DNA of 5,366 nt from Desulfobacteraceae bacterium UBA2230. GTDB lineage: Bacteria > Desulfobacterota > Desulfobacteria > Desulfobacterales > Desulfosarcinaceae. The notes beneath the pieces were generated by a model that made no database searches, was not told the origin of the DNA, and saw only the letters and a program-made list of their open reading frames with translations. The position numbers and the translations under genes are program-made. Positions 479 to 5,253 of the stretch are shown piece after piece; within the stretch, counting starts at the first letter, position 1, and each line of letters opens with the position of its first letter. Where the stretch lies: NCBI GenBank assembly GCA_002348005.1, contig DDYQ01000146.1, forward strand, positions 1-5,366, given 5' to 3'.

Positions 479-507
479 TTGACTCCTCATGTGTCCGGGG
501 TTAATGT
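479..507 (+). promoter_or_regulatory. Sigma70-like promoter for the riboswitch-sensor-trkH transcript
   Basis: A -35 box TTGACT (479-484, five of six consensus bases) is followed by a 17-base spacer and a weaker -10 box TAATGT (502-507). Transcription would start near 513-516, exactly at the 5' edge of the riboswitch P1 stem (516-519). That placement is what one expects for a transcript beginning with an aptamer, and it is the main reason to believe the weak -10. The boxes are seen; start-site use is inferred. Confidence 0.5.
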
Positions 508-513
508 GCGGGC

Positions 514-636
514 ATTGCCGAATCCCGACTCGGGAACGGGGGACCCAATTTTTCGGGGCGAATCGCCGCACGGCGATGGGCAGCCTCTTCGGCCCTATCC
601 CTTCAGCTAACCTCGTAGGCATCGAGGAGGAGAACC
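514..636 (+). promoter_or_regulatory. c-di-AMP riboswitch (ydaO/yuaA class) aptamer
   Basis: The conserved core of the class is present in order: GGGGGACCCA (538-547), GGGGCGAATC (555-564) and CAGCTAACCTCG (604-615). Stems that can be drawn are P1 TGCC/GGCA (516-519 with 618-621), a hairpin TCCCG/CGGGA (523-527 with 531-535), ATCGCC/GGCGAT (562-567 with 572-577), and GGGC/GCCC (578-581 with 592-595). The loop of the last one, CCTCTTCG (584-591), pairs with CGAGGAGG (623-630) over all eight positions with one G-U, forming the class's long-range pseudoknot. This class binds cyclic di-AMP and usually turns expression off at high ligand; its targets include K+ transporters and cell-wall enzymes. 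The operon downstream encodes a K+ channel subunit, which fits. The best-known examples are in Gram-positive bacteria. Identification is by motif and structure, read by eye. Confidence 0.93.
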
Positions 637-681
637 TTCGGAAGCGTTTGGAGGGATTCTCCCCATAGCGACTTTCGGAGG
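629..681 (+). promoter_or_regulatory. Candidate expression platform: two mutually exclusive hairpins
   Basis: Hairpin A pairs GGAGAA (629-634) with TTCTCC (657-662) and CCTTC (635-639) with GAGGG (651-655), with a single bulged A at 656. Hairpin B pairs 635-644 with 672-681 over ten positions (two G-U). They share 635-639 and cannot coexist. Hairpin A also needs 629-630, the last two bases of the aptamer pseudoknot, so ligand binding should weaken A and favour B. B buries GGAGG (677-681), the Shine-Dalgarno-like site of the small ORF at 689. Neither hairpin is followed by a T tract, so a simple intrinsic terminator is not visible. The pairings are read from the sequence; the switching model is inference. 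Confidence 0.4.
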
Positions 682-688
682 GTACCCC

Positions 689-814
689 ATGCCTGTCGAG
701 CCTGCACGCCGTGCCTGCGATGTTCCATCGCCGTCGATTCAATTCCGCTTCAACCCGGGTCCGTGCAAAAGATCACCGCGCTTGCTCCGACCCCATCAGA
801 ATTCGTCCGGCTGA
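689..814 (+). CDS. Possible 41-codon leader ORF behind the riboswitch
   Basis: ATG at 689 is preceded by GGAGG (677-681) seven bases upstream and opens a 41-codon frame ending at TGA 812-814. The predicted peptide begins MPVEPARRACDV and is rich in Pro, Arg and Ser, with no membrane segment or domain that I recognise, and it does not look like a typical folded protein. Its interest is its position: it lies between the aptamer and the first clear gene, and its ribosome binding site can be masked by an alternative hairpin that should respond to c-di-AMP binding. It could be a regulatory leader peptide whose translation protects the message from Rho, or a chance frame. I cannot decide between these. 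Confidence 0.22.
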   Translation: MPVEPARRACDVPSPSIQFRFNPGPCKRSPRLLRPHQNSSG

Positions 815-822
815 TTTCAGCC
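809..822 (+). other. Small hairpin before a T-rich stretch
   Basis: GGCTG (809-813) and CAGCC (818-822) enclose the tetraloop ATTT and overlap the stop codon of the possible leader ORF. A T-rich but interrupted stretch (roughly 829-842) follows after several bases. As an attenuator this is poor: the stem is short and the T tract is neither adjacent nor continuous. It is listed because it is the only hairpin-plus-T arrangement between the aptamer and the sensor gene. Confidence 0.2.
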
Positions 823-910
823 CGAGTGCTCTTTATTGTTTGCGTGAATGTTTCAATGAGCGCATGTAACAGCCGACGACCTTGAATACCTTCCTCAAAG
901 GAACACAGAG

Positions 911-1657
911 ATGAGTCTACGCATTAAGATCATTTCCGGTTTTTTGATACTGGCGGTCATGCTTTTCGCTGCAGGTGCGCTTTCGATTCATGAATTGATG
1001 CACATCGGGCAATCCGTTCAATCGCTGCTGGATGAGAATTATAGAAGCATCAATGCCGCCAAAAACATGATTGAGGCCCTGGAAAGAGAGGACAGCGGCA
1101 TCCTGCTTCTGATCTCCGGAGGGGAAGAGGAAGGCCGCCCGATTATTCAAGAAGCTGACCAGTATTTCCAGGATGCTTTTAAGGTGGCGCAAAACAACAT
1201 TACCATTCCGGGTGAGGCTGGATATGTCGAAGCCATATTGAAAGCCTATGAACTCTACCGGACTCACTGGCAAGAGGCCGTTGCAGGCGCTAAACAGGGG
1301 GATCTCGAATGGTATTACAATTTGGTGCACCCCGCTTTCAGCGAGGCCAAGAAAACAGTCAACCAACTGATGACACTGAACGACAAAACTTTGTACAAAA
1401 CCGCATCCGCCCTCAAAAACAGGGCGCGGCGATCGATTATGCCCGGTGTCATCGCCATAATTTCAGCCCTGCTTTTTACGGCTGTATTCAATTTTTTCAT
1501 TAATCTGTATTTTATCGCACCGATAAAAAAACTCACCTCCGGCATCCGAAACTACATGGTAACAGGAGAGCGATCGGGTTTGCGGGTCAGCAGTCGGGAT
1601 GAGATCTCAGATTTGGCCGCGGCTATCGAGGAACTTACCATATTGCGGAAGGAATGA
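911..1657 (+). CDS. Membrane sensor protein with HAMP domain and no output domain
   Basis: The 248-residue product starts at an ATG eight bases after AAGGA (898-902). It has a first membrane helix (about 7-25), an extracytoplasmic, mostly helical region (about 26-175), a second membrane helix (about 178-202), and a HAMP domain (about 203-245) with the expected Pro (P204) after the membrane and the DEI motif (230-232) before the second amphipathic helix. The segment from N43 to G70, NYRSINAA followed by IEALEREDSGILLL, resembles the four-helix-bundle sensor modules of KinB-type histidine kinases. The protein ends three residues after HAMP: no kinase, GGDEF or methyl-accepting domain follows, and the next gene starts three bases after the stop, so this is not a recent frameshift of a longer receptor. 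It is co-transcribed with trkH. I infer that it may sense an envelope or osmotic signal and act on TrkH or an unlinked partner; no function is established by the sequence. Confidence 0.87.
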   Translation: MSLRIKIISGFLILAVMLFAAGALSIHELMHIGQSVQSLLDENYRSINAAKNMIEALEREDSGILLLISGGEEEGRPIIQEADQYFQDAFKVAQNNITIPGEAGYVEAILKAYELYRTHWQEAVAGAKQGDLEWYYNLVHPAFSEAKKTVNQLMTLNDKTLYKTASALKNRARRSIMPGVIAIISALLFTAVFNFFINLYFIAPIKKLTSGIRNYMVTGERSGLRVSSRDEISDLAAAIEELTILRKE

Positions 1658-1660
1658 AGC

Positions 1661-3100
1661 ATGAGGCTCGAAGTCGTAATGCGATATGTGGGCTTTATTT
1701 TGCTTTTCAACGCTTTGTTCCTTTTTGTTTCCGCAATCATTTCGCTGCTGCAGGGAGATAACGCATTCAAGTATCTGGTGTTCAGTGCGACCGTCGCGCT
1801 CCTCTTCGGAGTATTCCCCTTACTGTTCGTTCCGCCTACGCTTGAAATAACCAACAAGGAAGGTCTTTTCATTATTGTATCAGGCTGGCTCTTATCATGT
1901 CTTGTGGGCCTGATGCCATTCGTGCTCTGGGGAGGGCCGTTTACCTTTACGGACGCCTGGTTCGAAAGTGTGTCAGGATTTACTACCACCGGGTCTTCAA
2001 TTCTTTCCGATATCGAATCCATACCCAAAGGATTGCTGTTTTGGCGGGCCAGCACGCACTGGCTCGGCGGGGTGGGAATCATCGTTTTTGTACTGGCGGT
2101 TCTGCCTTCGATGGGTTCAGCATCAATGGTCCTTTACCGCTCCGAGACCTCTGCCCTGGCGATCAAGGATTTCCGTTTTCGAACCCGTGAAACCATCAAG
2201 ATCATTCTTTACGTCTATCTCGGACTGACCATCCTGGAAACCATCGCCTTGATTTTAGCCGGGCTCAGCCCGTTTGACGCGGTCACCCACTCCTTTGCGA
2301 CCATCGCCACCGGCGGCTTTTCAACTAAAAATACCAGCGTCGCCTTCTTCAACAGCCCGGTCGTTGAATCGATAATCATGATTTTCATGCTGCTGTCCGG
2401 CATCCATTTCGGCCTGCTGTTTGCTTTCGTTGCCGGCAATTTCCGAACTTTATATCAATCCACAATTGTACGGTACTACCTGCTGTCAATCTTTTCAGGC
2501 ATTTTTGCAGTGACCGCAAACCTCTGGGTGAGTACATACGGCACACTGGCGGAATCCATCCGATATGCTGCCTTTCAGGTGATATCCATCGGCACCAGCA
2601 CGGGTTTTGCCAACACCGACAGCGCGGTATGGCCCCCCTTTTCCGTGCTGGTTCTGCTTTTTTTCACGCTCCAATGCGCCTGCGCCGGTTCGACGACAGG
2701 AGGCATTAAAGTCGACCGCATCGTTATATTGGGAAAAGCACTGCTGAGAGAAATCCTCTATCTTCGCCACTCCAAAGGGGTTTTTTTGATTAAAGTGAAT
2801 GACAGGACCATTGGGGATCAGCATGTAAATTCAGCTATAATTTTTATTCTGCTCTATCTGTCTGTTTTGCTGTTGTCCACTTTATGCATCACATCATTCA
2901 ACATCGATCTATTAACTGCGTTCTCAGGTGTCGCCGCTGCAATGGGCAATGTGGGGCCCGGATTCGGACTTGTGGGCTCAATGGACAATTTCAGCCATTT
3001 GCCGAGTGCCGTTAAATGGATTCTGAGTTTCGATATGCTCATGGGCAGATTGGAAATTTATTCCCTGATTCTGTTTTTCACCATGCGCCAATGGAAATAA
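1661..3100 (+). CDS. trkH: TrkH family K+ uptake channel subunit
   Basis: The 479-residue, highly hydrophobic product has the four-fold repeat of the TrkH/KtrB superfamily, each unit being helix, pore loop, helix. The four filter loops are visible: FTTTGSS (107-113), ATGGFST (216-222), GTSTGFA (311-317) and NVGPGFG (430-436). HWLGGVGI (133-140) and the glycine-rich CAGSTTGGIKVDR (341-353), the region of the intramembrane gating loop in this family, are also characteristic. Length is close to the usual TrkH of about 480 residues, and the C-terminus (LMGRLEIYSLILFF) is intact, so the gene looks functional. TrkH forms a dimeric K+ channel in the cytoplasmic membrane, normally gated by the nucleotide-binding TrkA ring; no trkA/ktrA gene lies nearby. 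The ATG follows GGAAGGA (1647-1653), which overlaps the end of the sensor gene, so the two are probably translated from one message. Control by the upstream c-di-AMP riboswitch is inferred from position and matches the known link between c-di-AMP and K+ uptake. The filter resembles TrkH more than Na+-dependent KtrB. Confidence 0.95.
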   Translation: MRLEVVMRYVGFILLFNALFLFVSAIISLLQGDNAFKYLVFSATVALLFGVFPLLFVPPTLEITNKEGLFIIVSGWLLSCLVGLMPFVLWGGPFTFTDAWFESVSGFTTTGSSILSDIESIPKGLLFWRASTHWLGGVGIIVFVLAVLPSMGSASMVLYRSETSALAIKDFRFRTRETIKIILYVYLGLTILETIALILAGLSPFDAVTHSFATIATGGFSTKNTSVAFFNSPVVESIIMIFMLLSGIHFGLLFAFVAGNFRTLYQSTIVRYYLLSIFSGIFAVTANLWVSTYGTLAESIRYAAFQVISIGTSTGFANTDSAVWPPFSVLVLLFFTLQCACAGSTTGGIKVDRIVILGKALLREILYLRHSKGVFLIKVNDRTIGDQHVNSAIIFILLYLSVLLLSTLCITSFNIDLLTAFSGVAAAMGNVGPGFGLVGSMDNFSHLPSAVKWILSFDMLMGRLEIYSLILFFTMRQWK

Positions 3101-3334: not shown

Positions 3335-3712
3335 ATGTTTAGCATGACACGTTCATTCAAGTGGGTGGGTTTGTCGCTGCTGGCGCTGCTGATATGGGGC
3401 GGCGGCGCTGCGGCCGACCGGTCTTTGCGCTGCAATGGGCAGCTTGTTTCCGTCGGATCATTCAAGGATCAGGTGCTCAGAAAATGCGGGGAACCGCATC
3501 ATGTCGAGCAGTGGGAGTCCGGCCACGGCAGTGCCATTGCAGAATATTTTGACTACGAAAAAGAACGCTTCATCCTTCCCAAACTTTACATCGGGCCCAT
3601 GCATTTCGAACGCTGGACCTACGATCTGGGGTCCAACCAGTTCATCCGCTACCTGCTGTTTAGAAACGGCGAACTCATCGATATCAAAACCGGGGAAAAA
3701 GGCAGCCGCTGA
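3335..3712 (+). CDS. Exported DUF2845 family protein
   Basis: The 125-residue product has a positively charged start, a hydrophobic segment (about 11-24), and a likely signal peptidase site at AAA|D (27/28), so it is probably periplasmic. The mature part fits the DUF2845 pattern: LRCNGQLVSVG, then VLRKCGEP, then ERWTYDLG and NQFIRYLLFRNGELIDIKTG at the C-terminus. The two cysteines (33 and 51) are typical of the family and could form a disulfide. The function of the family is unknown to me. An in-frame stop at 3323-3325 rules out a longer protein. The start is uncertain: ATG at 3335 or at 3344, both with only a distant purine run (3311-3318) upstream. It follows the probable terminator of the trkH operon and is likely a separate transcription unit. 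Confidence 0.82.
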   Translation: MFSMTRSFKWVGLSLLALLIWGGGAAADRSLRCNGQLVSVGSFKDQVLRKCGEPHHVEQWESGHGSAIAEYFDYEKERFILPKLYIGPMHFERWTYDLGSNQFIRYLLFRNGELIDIKTGEKGSR

Positions 3713-3856: not shown

Positions 3857-4399
3857 ATGAAATCAGCTCAGGCAACAAACCAGAAAATCCACACCCGGCA
3901 AATCGACATTGCCACATACAGAGGGAACACACCGGACGCCTTCATCGTCGAAGGCATTCTAAAAGATGAACGCCTGCTGGATACGTTCGGCCCCGCCGGG
4001 AAATTTTATCCGGCCGGGACCATCCATCACATGATCGTAAGGATTACGGTTAAGGCTTTGACGCTGGTTATCGAAGACATCGAGGTCGAAATGCCGACGA
4101 TTCCGCATCAGATGTGCATCGATACGTTGAAGTGTCTTGATCCGGTAAAGGGGCTCGCAATCGTTTCCGGATTCACCTCCAGTGTTAAGAAGCTTGTGGG
4201 TGGCGTCAAAGGATGCGTTCATCTGCTGGCGCTGCTGACCGCCATGGCGCCGGCGGCGTTCCAGGGTGTTTTCAGTGCGATAGGAAAAGACCTGGATCCC
4301 TCGCATACGGCAGAGAAGATGAAAGATACCTGCCGGGTCTGGCGTGAGGATGGACCGTTGATGGAGCAATTAACGAGGTCGATGAAGAAGAAGCATTGA
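3857..4399 (+). CDS. DUF2889 family protein
   Basis: The frame is open from a TTG at 3761, but I choose ATG 3857 because AGGA (3845-3848) sits eight bases before it and the family-like sequence begins only after it; the upstream 32 codons read as random. The resulting 180 residues start with HTRQIDIATYRG (12-23), followed by FIVEGILKDE, a central IHHMIVRITV (56-65), and VGGVKGCVHLLALLTAMAPAAFQ (roughly 114-136), which is the family's hallmark G-C-x-H segment. The tail has CRVWREDGP (159-167). This order matches DUF2889, a cytoplasmic family of unknown biochemical role found widely in proteobacteria. Cys87, Cys120, His122 and Cys159 are the residues to look at if a metal site exists. There is no signal peptide or membrane helix. 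It lies 144 bases after the DUF2845 gene and may overlap a small ORF at its stop. Confidence 0.8.
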   Translation: MKSAQATNQKIHTRQIDIATYRGNTPDAFIVEGILKDERLLDTFGPAGKFYPAGTIHHMIVRITVKALTLVIEDIEVEMPTIPHQMCIDTLKCLDPVKGLAIVSGFTSSVKKLVGGVKGCVHLLALLTAMAPAAFQGVFSAIGKDLDPSHTAEKMKDTCRVWREDGPLMEQLTRSMKKKH

Positions 4400-4614: not shown

Positions 4615-5253
4615 ATGAAACTATCGAAGCATTTCTTCACTGTAACCTTTTTGAGTTTTTTTCTGATGGCGGGGCAAGCTTTTGCTGCCGAGGAAGGCGC
4701 AGTGGACCCTGCACAGAAAAGCACTGAAAAGGGCACGATGACGCGCCCCATGGACAACACCGAATCCCATATGGGTACTCAGTCAGCGGTTCATGACTTT
4801 CATCGCGCCAGTGATTTCATGGATGCCAGTGTCAAGGGAAGCGATGGCGAAGACCTGGGATCGGTTAAGGACATCATCATCTCCAGCGACGGCCAGGCCC
4901 GCTACATCGTCCTGTCCAAGGGCGGCTTTCTGGGGATTGGCGGGGACCTGATTCCGGTACCTTTCGACGTGGCCCAGCCGAGCAAAGGCACCGACGGCGA
5001 CTTGACCCTGAATATCGATGAGCAGTCCCTCGATCAGGCACCTACGGTAGCCGAGAACGATCTGCAGGACTCCACCCGTTGGGAGCAGGACGTTCGCGGT
5101 TATTTTGGCGATAACGGCATGCAGCGCGACACGCAACAGAGCACCGACACTTACAGCGACGATGTGGAAAGCGGTGCCCAACGCGACTCCGAAATCCAGG
5201 TGGAGCGTGAACAGCCTTCTACCGGTGAGACCGGCGAATACAACAAGCAGTAA
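4615..5253 (+). CDS. Exported PRC-barrel domain protein
   Basis: ATG 4615 follows a strong GGAGGG (4605-4610). The 212-residue product has a lysine-containing N-terminus, a hydrophobic core (about 8-20) and an AFA|A signal peptidase I site (24/25). After a polar linker (25-63) comes one PRC-barrel domain, about 64-145: RASDFMDASVKG, then GEDLGSVKDIIIS, then ARYIVLSKGGFLGIGGDLIPVPFD, the typical beta-barrel pattern. The tail (150-212) is acidic, rich in Asp, Gln, Ser and Thr, and probably disordered. PRC barrels occur in photosynthetic reaction centre H subunits and RimM, and in many small stress or envelope proteins of unknown role; this one is most like the last group and would act in the periplasm. 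Nothing links it to photosynthesis. It appears monocistronic, with 215 bases upstream and no gene immediately after it. Confidence 0.85.
   Translation: MKLSKHFFTVTFLSFFLMAGQAFAAEEGAVDPAQKSTEKGTMTRPMDNTESHMGTQSAVHDFHRASDFMDASVKGSDGEDLGSVKDIIISSDGQARYIVLSKGGFLGIGGDLIPVPFDVAQPSKGTDGDLTLNIDEQSLDQAPTVAENDLQDSTRWEQDVRGYFGDNGMQRDTQQSTDTYSDDVESGAQRDSEIQVEREQPSTGETGEYNKQ

Follow-up and report, generated by a model that had tools for sequence, protein, structure and literature searches.

The window analysed here, a stretch of 5,366 nucleotides (nt) from contig DDYQ01000146.1 of Desulfobacteraceae bacterium UBA2230, carries on its plus strand a riboswitch of the cyclic di-adenosine monophosphate (c-di-AMP) family, a short open reading frame (ORF), a gene for a membrane sensor and a gene for the potassium channel subunit TrkH, in that order (Table 1). 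The short leader ORF ends 96 nt before the sensor start, and the sensor gene is followed by trkH on the same strand after 3 nt. The first-pass annotation of this DNA had proposed a c-di-AMP riboswitch heading a sensor-TrkH operon in a probable deltaproteobacterium. The proposed origin is supported, since the two closest TrkH relatives with an organism named on the record (70 and 74% identity) belong to metagenome-assembled genomes of Desulfobacterales.

Table 1. Features of the riboswitch, its expression platform and the genes behind it (positions in the window).
Feature	Position	Strand	Evidence
c-di-AMP riboswitch aptamer (RF00379, ydaO-yuaA)	506..636	+	cmscan 90.7 bits, E 4.9e-21, model 1-134/134
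Aptamer pseudoknot, 5' strand (partner 622-630)	584..592	+	Direct reading of the sequence: nine contiguous pairs, two G-U
Aptamer pseudoknot, 3' strand; overlaps alternative helix 626-636/654-664	622..630	+	Sequence; helix -13.0 kcal/mol
Anti-Shine-Dalgarno strand (partner 667-681)	635..648	+	Duplex -17.9 kcal/mol, shuffle tests
Leader-ORF Shine-Dalgarno GGAGGG; 677-681 inside predicted stem	677..682	+	Position like kup/kimA Shine-Dalgarno in relatives
41-codon leader ORF at the platform start codon	689..814	+	Placed like short ORFs of related genomes
Membrane sensor: transmembrane segment, four-helix bundle (4HB_MCP_1, NarQ/KinB-like), transmembrane segment, partial HAMP; no output domain found	911..1657	+	
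TrkH potassium channel subunit	1661..3100	+	PF02386

The Rfam covariance model recovered the aptamer over its full length and well above the gathering score of 38, bearing out the earlier claim, although the match begins at 506 and not at 479, where that annotation had set its start. The pseudoknot is likewise present, with nine positions instead of the eight counted before: the 5' strand (CCTCTTCGG) can pair without interruption with its partner. By its sequence the element is a member of the c-di-AMP riboswitch family and would be expected to bind this ligand.

Positions 637-910 had been passed over by the first-pass annotation, which placed the riboswitch directly ahead of the sensor; this region contains the expression platform as well as the leader ORF, and the platform faces the ORF's start codon, ATG 689. 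The strand adjoining the aptamer can pair with 667-681 and bury the Shine-Dalgarno (SD) sequence of this start, forming a duplex that 1 of 300 free shuffles equalled. The hairpin 631-691 has a minimum free energy of -25.5 kcal/mol (z -2.66), and 3 of 200 dinucleotide shuffles were equally good. We assessed the corresponding stem in 31 of the 37 platform-type loci, the six without the anchor strings being left out. Under free shuffling, at most 8 of 300 shuffles were equally good in every one of the 31 loci. Since the loci had been chosen by ACCT and GGAGG, strings that pair with each other, this test was too lenient and was therefore repeated with both strings fixed; 29 of the 31 loci then passed the 5% level, and 4 of 500 shuffles equalled the stem of the window. 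Counted in ungapped register, 293 of the 341 cells formed by 11 stem positions over 31 loci are paired, compared with 111-224 when one strand is slid along the other. The excess persists outside the anchor, at positions 5-11 (180/217 cells vs 51-142) and at positions 7-11 (122/155 vs 25-88). A covariation analysis by MAFFT alignment was dropped, the 5' strand being misaligned by one position. The leader SD is thus predicted to be sequestered by the strand next to the aptamer.

The platform can also adopt an alternative helix, 626-636/654-664, which 0.3% of 300 shuffles equalled and whose 5' strand overlaps both the pseudoknot and the anti-SD strand. It beats 95% of shuffles in 21 of the 31 loci, including the window. 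The alternative-helix state and the SD-closed state are mutually exclusive, and c-di-AMP would presumably favour the closed one.

Our preferred reading, to which we assign a probability of roughly 0.55, is that a c-di-AMP translational OFF switch heads a transcript of leader ORF, sensor and trkH, and that shutting off the leader lowers expression of the operon, most likely via Rho. At low c-di-AMP, 626-636 would pair with 654-664, occupying the anti-SD strand and leaving the SD free for translation of the leader ORF. High c-di-AMP, taken as a sign of sufficient K+, would keep the pseudoknot in place and let 635-648 close on 667-681, so that the leader would not be translated. The untranslated, C-rich leader would in turn reduce expression of the operon 96 nt downstream, most probably through Rho-dependent polarity, and with it the supply of TrkH and its membrane sensor partner. 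The computation supports the aptamer, an SD-sequestering stem common to relatives, the position of the leader ORF and the pairing of sensor with TrkH; what we infer is that the ligand binds, in which direction the switch works, that leader and operon share a transcript and that the leader acts on the operon. Of the c-di-AMP control of sensor and trkH claimed earlier, the placement of aptamer and gene pair on the same strand stands, and the reach of the switch to the two genes belongs to the inferred part.

The riboswitch was then viewed against its relatives. Here, "phylum" and "order" refer to the groups to which the genome carrying L001 belongs; L001 is one of the two pair loci nearest to the window in named genomes (Desulfobacterales per its record). 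Candidates were scored in part for each genome, which makes the phylum, order and 50-genome riboswitch counts lower bounds; full scoring of one family of seven genomes left its counts unchanged. The first-pass annotation had considered the riboswitch unusual in such Gram-negative bacteria. This view does not hold: RF00379 matches occur in at least 39 of 297 genomes of the phylum (at least 38 over the cut-off), and at 43 of the 77 riboswitch places compared the gene behind is Kup or KimA-like. In the order, at least 16 of 242 genomes have a match. The family holding genomes G456, G480 and G530 has riboswitches in 5 of its 7 genomes, and one genome has seven above the cut-off, or eight at E up to 0.001, before unrelated genes. 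The 77 places include one from another phylum and one listed twice. Their first recognised gene within 1.5 kb, labelled by motifs, was Kup at 24, KimA-like at 19, a second APC-like group at 5, an FN3-like protein at 7 and another gene at 6, with none recognised at 16. At L113 the order is riboswitch, trkA, trkH, and at L102 a TrkH-family gene comes after kup.

With the window added (78 loci), a start codon with an SD lies at +25 to +80 from the aptamer in 40. The kup and KimA-like genes that have the SD-sequestering platform start at +49 to +64. The platform start codon of the window, at +53, opens a frame of 41 codons, with the sensor start at +275. L068 was missed by this count because its SD reads GGAAGG. 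Several of the loci without a platform start carry in its place a hairpin resembling a terminator, with a T-run; there are thus at least two types of platform, of which translational control is one. Riboswitches of KimA-like genes with the terminator-like arrangement and no SD-sequestering platform include L087, L088, L094, L097, L120 and L124, among others.

Such terminator-like platforms, and the frequency of riboswitches before K+ transporter genes in the phylum, would also suit an ordinary form of control in which the ligand acts on the stability or termination of the transcript, the 41-codon ORF being an accidental frame. The aptamer and the operon share one strand, and a search of 216-1700 found no terminator or promoter match on the plus strand, hence none between them. 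However, the lack of an intrinsic terminator after the aptamer in the same search argues against this form of control, as do the stem that can sequester the SD, the start codon close to where kup or kimA begins in relatives, and the recurrence of the leader layout at 11 riboswitches of three related genomes. We regard this explanation as distinctly unlikely.

That recurrence supports our reading of the leader as a part of the switch. At twelve other riboswitches the platform start codon likewise opens a short ORF (L081, L116, L119, L123, L131, L134, L137, L140, L141, L142, L143 and L176). Eleven of them lie in three genomes of one family, namely G480 (five), G456 (four) and G530 (two), where the leader ORFs of one genome may be copies of one another. 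In 10 of these 11 the ORF is 6-59 codons long; the gene behind it, which has an SD-like stretch, starts at +258 to +382, its start codon being the analyst's choice. L141 has an ambiguous ORF (16 codons if read from the earlier of two ATGs), with the next long ORF at +153, and L081 differs from the other leader-type loci in its gap of 11 nt. The last of these lies on contig 3 of G090, about 2.3 kb from a second riboswitch, L099; L081 precedes a 34-codon ORF and a KimA-like gene, and L099 precedes kup directly. Riboswitches with kup immediately behind them occur in the leader-class genomes as well (L138, L144 and L175). Among the genes behind these leaders are those for an FN3/PKD protein, a multihaem cytochrome and a PAS protein; at L176, a 22-codon ORF is followed by what we take, from a motif, to resemble the small subunit of a NiFe hydrogenase. 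The 13 aptamers nearest to that of the window among the 77 compared (79-83% likeness) come from G456, G480 and G530, with the exception of L082. Because two of them (L138 and L144) precede kup, this similarity reflects kinship of lineage and not of leader class. DNA comparison of the window leader with other leaders gave no convincing kinship (best L138, 3/200 shuffles, and L137, 4/200, in 16 comparisons).

The leader is also C-rich: over the 150 nt that follow ATG 689 the C/G ratio is 1.53, compared with 0.94 in the sensor gene and 1.12 in trkH. Medians are 1.56 for the leader class and 1.33 for riboswitches directly before their gene (one-sided p 0.0006, on related sequences). This composition is at most compatible with Rho loading.

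Five of the leader-type loci, L116, L119, L123, L131 and L134, from three genomes of the order, have their ORF at +56 and encode products of 56-59 amino acids (aa) with a hydrophobic segment in common, as judged by eye. They could point to the leader product as the actual target of the riboswitch, a small functional peptide, with the downstream operon independent of it. The 41-aa product of the window, however, lacks the hydrophobic segment and any homologue that we could find, the leader ORFs range from 6 to 59 aa in length, and the third-position bias in the five ORFs compared is mild. A peptide target therefore appears very improbable.

The two genes after the leader agree with the first-pass annotation, which had a sensor and TrkH downstream of the aptamer. 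The 248-aa sensor product matches PF12729 (4HB_MCP_1) above the cut-off (2e-07) and HAMP below it (17.1 vs 25 bits). An alignment-based structural model (mean predicted local distance difference test score 83.1, predicted template modelling score 0.62) is nearest to fragments of NarQ spanning sensor, membrane and HAMP parts, with the sensor domains of MCP2201 and KinB also among the matches; none fell below E 0.001. No output domain (MCPsignal or HisKA/HATPase) was found in the protein, which stops within HAMP. Having no detected cytoplasmic output domain, it does not qualify as a methyl-accepting chemoreceptor or a sensor histidine kinase. The 479-aa TrkH matches PF02386 at 4.4e-54 (184.2 bits vs a cut-off of 27); the stricter PRK10750 and TIGR00933 models of NCBIfam have cut-offs that it does not reach. 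Its best solved relative is 4j9u (4.5e-79), which we take to be the TrkH of Vibrio. A plasmid search returned TrkH relatives below 60% identity only. Neither sensor nor TrkH contains a detectable RCK or TrkA_C domain, leaving protein-level control of K+ entry, raised earlier as a possibility, unsupported as far as c-di-AMP is concerned. No trkA was found in the window, and none of ten neighbour genes tested beside the pair loci was TrkA, one citrate-transporter-like neighbour having a TrkA_C domain. In 7 of 8 relatives searched, TrkA-like frames of 458-475 aa with two TrkA_C matches lie elsewhere.

The sensor had been described as an extra gene between RNA and channel; it turned out not to be special to this locus but half of a widespread pair. 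A sensor match was found in 55 of 56 loci of named genomes, and TrkH lies behind it on the same strand in 51 of these 55, two of the remaining four loci stopping at a contig end. TrkH lies within 60 nt of the sensor in 45 loci and overlaps it by 4 nt in 22, gaps being measured from the start codon nearest to the sensor stop, which biases them to small values. As deposited, the pair loci belong to Desulfobacterales, Syntrophales, Acidobacteria, Bacteroidetes, Ignavibacteriales, Calditrichaeota, KSB1 and Neomarinimicrobiota. A cobalamin riboswitch lies near one pair on the opposite strand (L156, 1158-1336, minus). Within the order, 158 of 242 genomes match the sensor profile. Among the best 30 loci, which reach about 1.5 kb past the matched sensor part, each of the 12 short frames (253-349 aa) is followed by TrkH, directly in 11 cases and after about 0.8 kb in one (L148). 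None of the 18 longer homologues (504-662 aa) has TrkH in the locus, little being visible beyond their ends. Since the short forms have TrkH downstream and the longer ones show none, the output-less sensor is best taken for a partner of TrkH that descends from the input portion of a sensor kinase. Coupling of a related kind is seen at two riboswitch loci: L101 has the riboswitch, kup and a sensor kinase (395-2233; HAMP, HisKA and HATPase, with 4HB below the cut-off), and L106 has the riboswitch, a permease and a 4HB-like protein of 305 aa (1162-2076; 26.7 vs 27 bits) with no kinase match.

The combination of riboswitch and pair is rare, because RF00379 was found at none of the 53 sensor loci scanned (of 56), 50 of which have TrkH and four of which have less than 250 nt upstream. 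The order riboswitch, sensor, trkH, which the first-pass annotation proposed to compare in related genomes, was accordingly not encountered among these loci. No RF00379 match was found at eight further sensor loci, some of them repeats of the same places, and a TrkH motif marks the next gene at none of the 77 riboswitch places. At least one of 50 whole genomes of relatives has RF00379, located away from the pair. The window is the only case seen of the riboswitch ahead of a sensor-TrkH pair. For the supply of c-di-AMP, the evidence comes from the genomes of relatives: the DAC domain (PF02457) occurs in all 50 riboswitch-bearing genomes examined, of 54 found, and in 42 of 50 genomes with the sensor family, the search having covered 50 of the 56 sensor loci.

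This rarity would be expected if the riboswitch were a relic that once governed kup or kimA at ATG 689, the gene having been lost and sensor-trkH now using a promoter of its own. The platform and its start codon do stand where many relatives begin kup or kimA. On the other hand, the aptamer and both platform helices look intact, the same layout, with a short ORF and then another gene at a similar distance, is found at the 11 riboswitches of related genomes, and no Kup-like motif was found in the three forward frames of 689-1108. We consider such a relic unlikely.

Several observations weigh against our preferred reading of a translational OFF switch acting through the leader. In the platform, L071 and L073 (2 of 31 loci) fail the anchor-fixed stem test, the stem columns that vary on both sides (6 of 11) hardly exceed the slid controls (3-5), the alternative helix fails the 5% test in 10 of 31 loci, and 38 of the 78 loci have no platform start of this kind. 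For the leader ORF, a word-based search of about 5.8 billion proteins found no homologue of its product. The best peptide match among other leaders (L143, 12 of 300 shuffles as good, 11 comparisons) was not convincing as a sign of kinship, and one pair of the longer leader ORFs shows no third-position bias, mild as it is in the five compared. Further downstream, the sensor gene has an SD-like AAAGGA of its own, a promoter may lie in 815-910, since the promoter scan was empty on the plus strand even upstream of the aptamer, and the pair loci nearest to the window in named genomes (L001 and L002, 69-70%) lack the riboswitch.

A wider proposal is put forward tentatively, as a possibility short of an even chance: Desulfobacterales may have a riboswitch class that acts at a distance, in which translation of a portable leader ORF licenses transcription of the following gene. 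In the window, c-di-AMP would then set the amount of channel and the four-helix-bundle sensor its gating. If true, c-di-AMP riboswitches would extend from direct gene switches to leader-ORF switches, present in several copies before unrelated genes. The output-less sensor, which accompanies TrkH in loci assigned on their records to many phyla, is a possible TrkH partner, and the pair could help explain the gating of TrkH channels that have no adjacent RCK gene.

Beyond the operon, the window contains the terminal part of an aminotransferase-like protein at its left end (3-215) and, 3' of trkH, genes for a DUF2845 protein (3335-3712), a DUF2889 protein (3857-4399) and a PRC-barrel protein (4615-5253).

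Among known systems, TrkAH (4j9u) resembles the channel of the window in family and length, but differs in that no trkA was found here. NarQ/KinB-type four-helix-bundle sensor kinases have the same arrangement of sensor, transmembrane and HAMP parts as the window sensor; unlike them, the latter has no HisKA/HATPase or other output found and is paired with trkH. No description of a 4HB/HAMP protein paired with TrkH, nor of a c-di-AMP riboswitch with a leader ORF, was found in the titles and abstract openings of the open-licence papers that the searches listed.

For the riboswitch, the available text of PMC5575661 and PMC7288161 reports that ktrAB and kimA have riboswitches for c-di-AMP and that Deltaproteobacteria have cyclases or DAC genes, and that of PMC3766115 groups ydaO-yuaA with osmoregulatory transporters. 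The Bacillus subtilis ydaO riboswitch (kimA, ktrAB) shares with the window its aptamer family, the link to K+ uptake and the presumed OFF polarity. It forms a terminator in the bound state, according to the available text of PMC5575661, whereas the window has an SD-sequestering platform, no terminator that we could find and a leader ORF between switch and gene.

A parallel to the predicted arrangement is the B12 riboswitch of Mycobacterium tuberculosis, as far as the available text of PMC11260477 describes it: a translational OFF riboswitch with a short translated upstream ORF (uORF) before ppe2, where the downstream gene depends on the uORF and Rho or coupling is proposed. Ligand and RNA class differ, and there uORF and gene overlap at stop and start. 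Since 96 nt separate leader ORF and sensor in the window, termination-reinitiation is unlikely here. Comparable too are the Kup/KimA-linked riboswitches of the phylum itself (L068, L084, L138, L144 and others), which have the same aptamer family and an SD-sequestering platform; unlike in the window, the transporter gene in these loci starts directly at the platform start codon.

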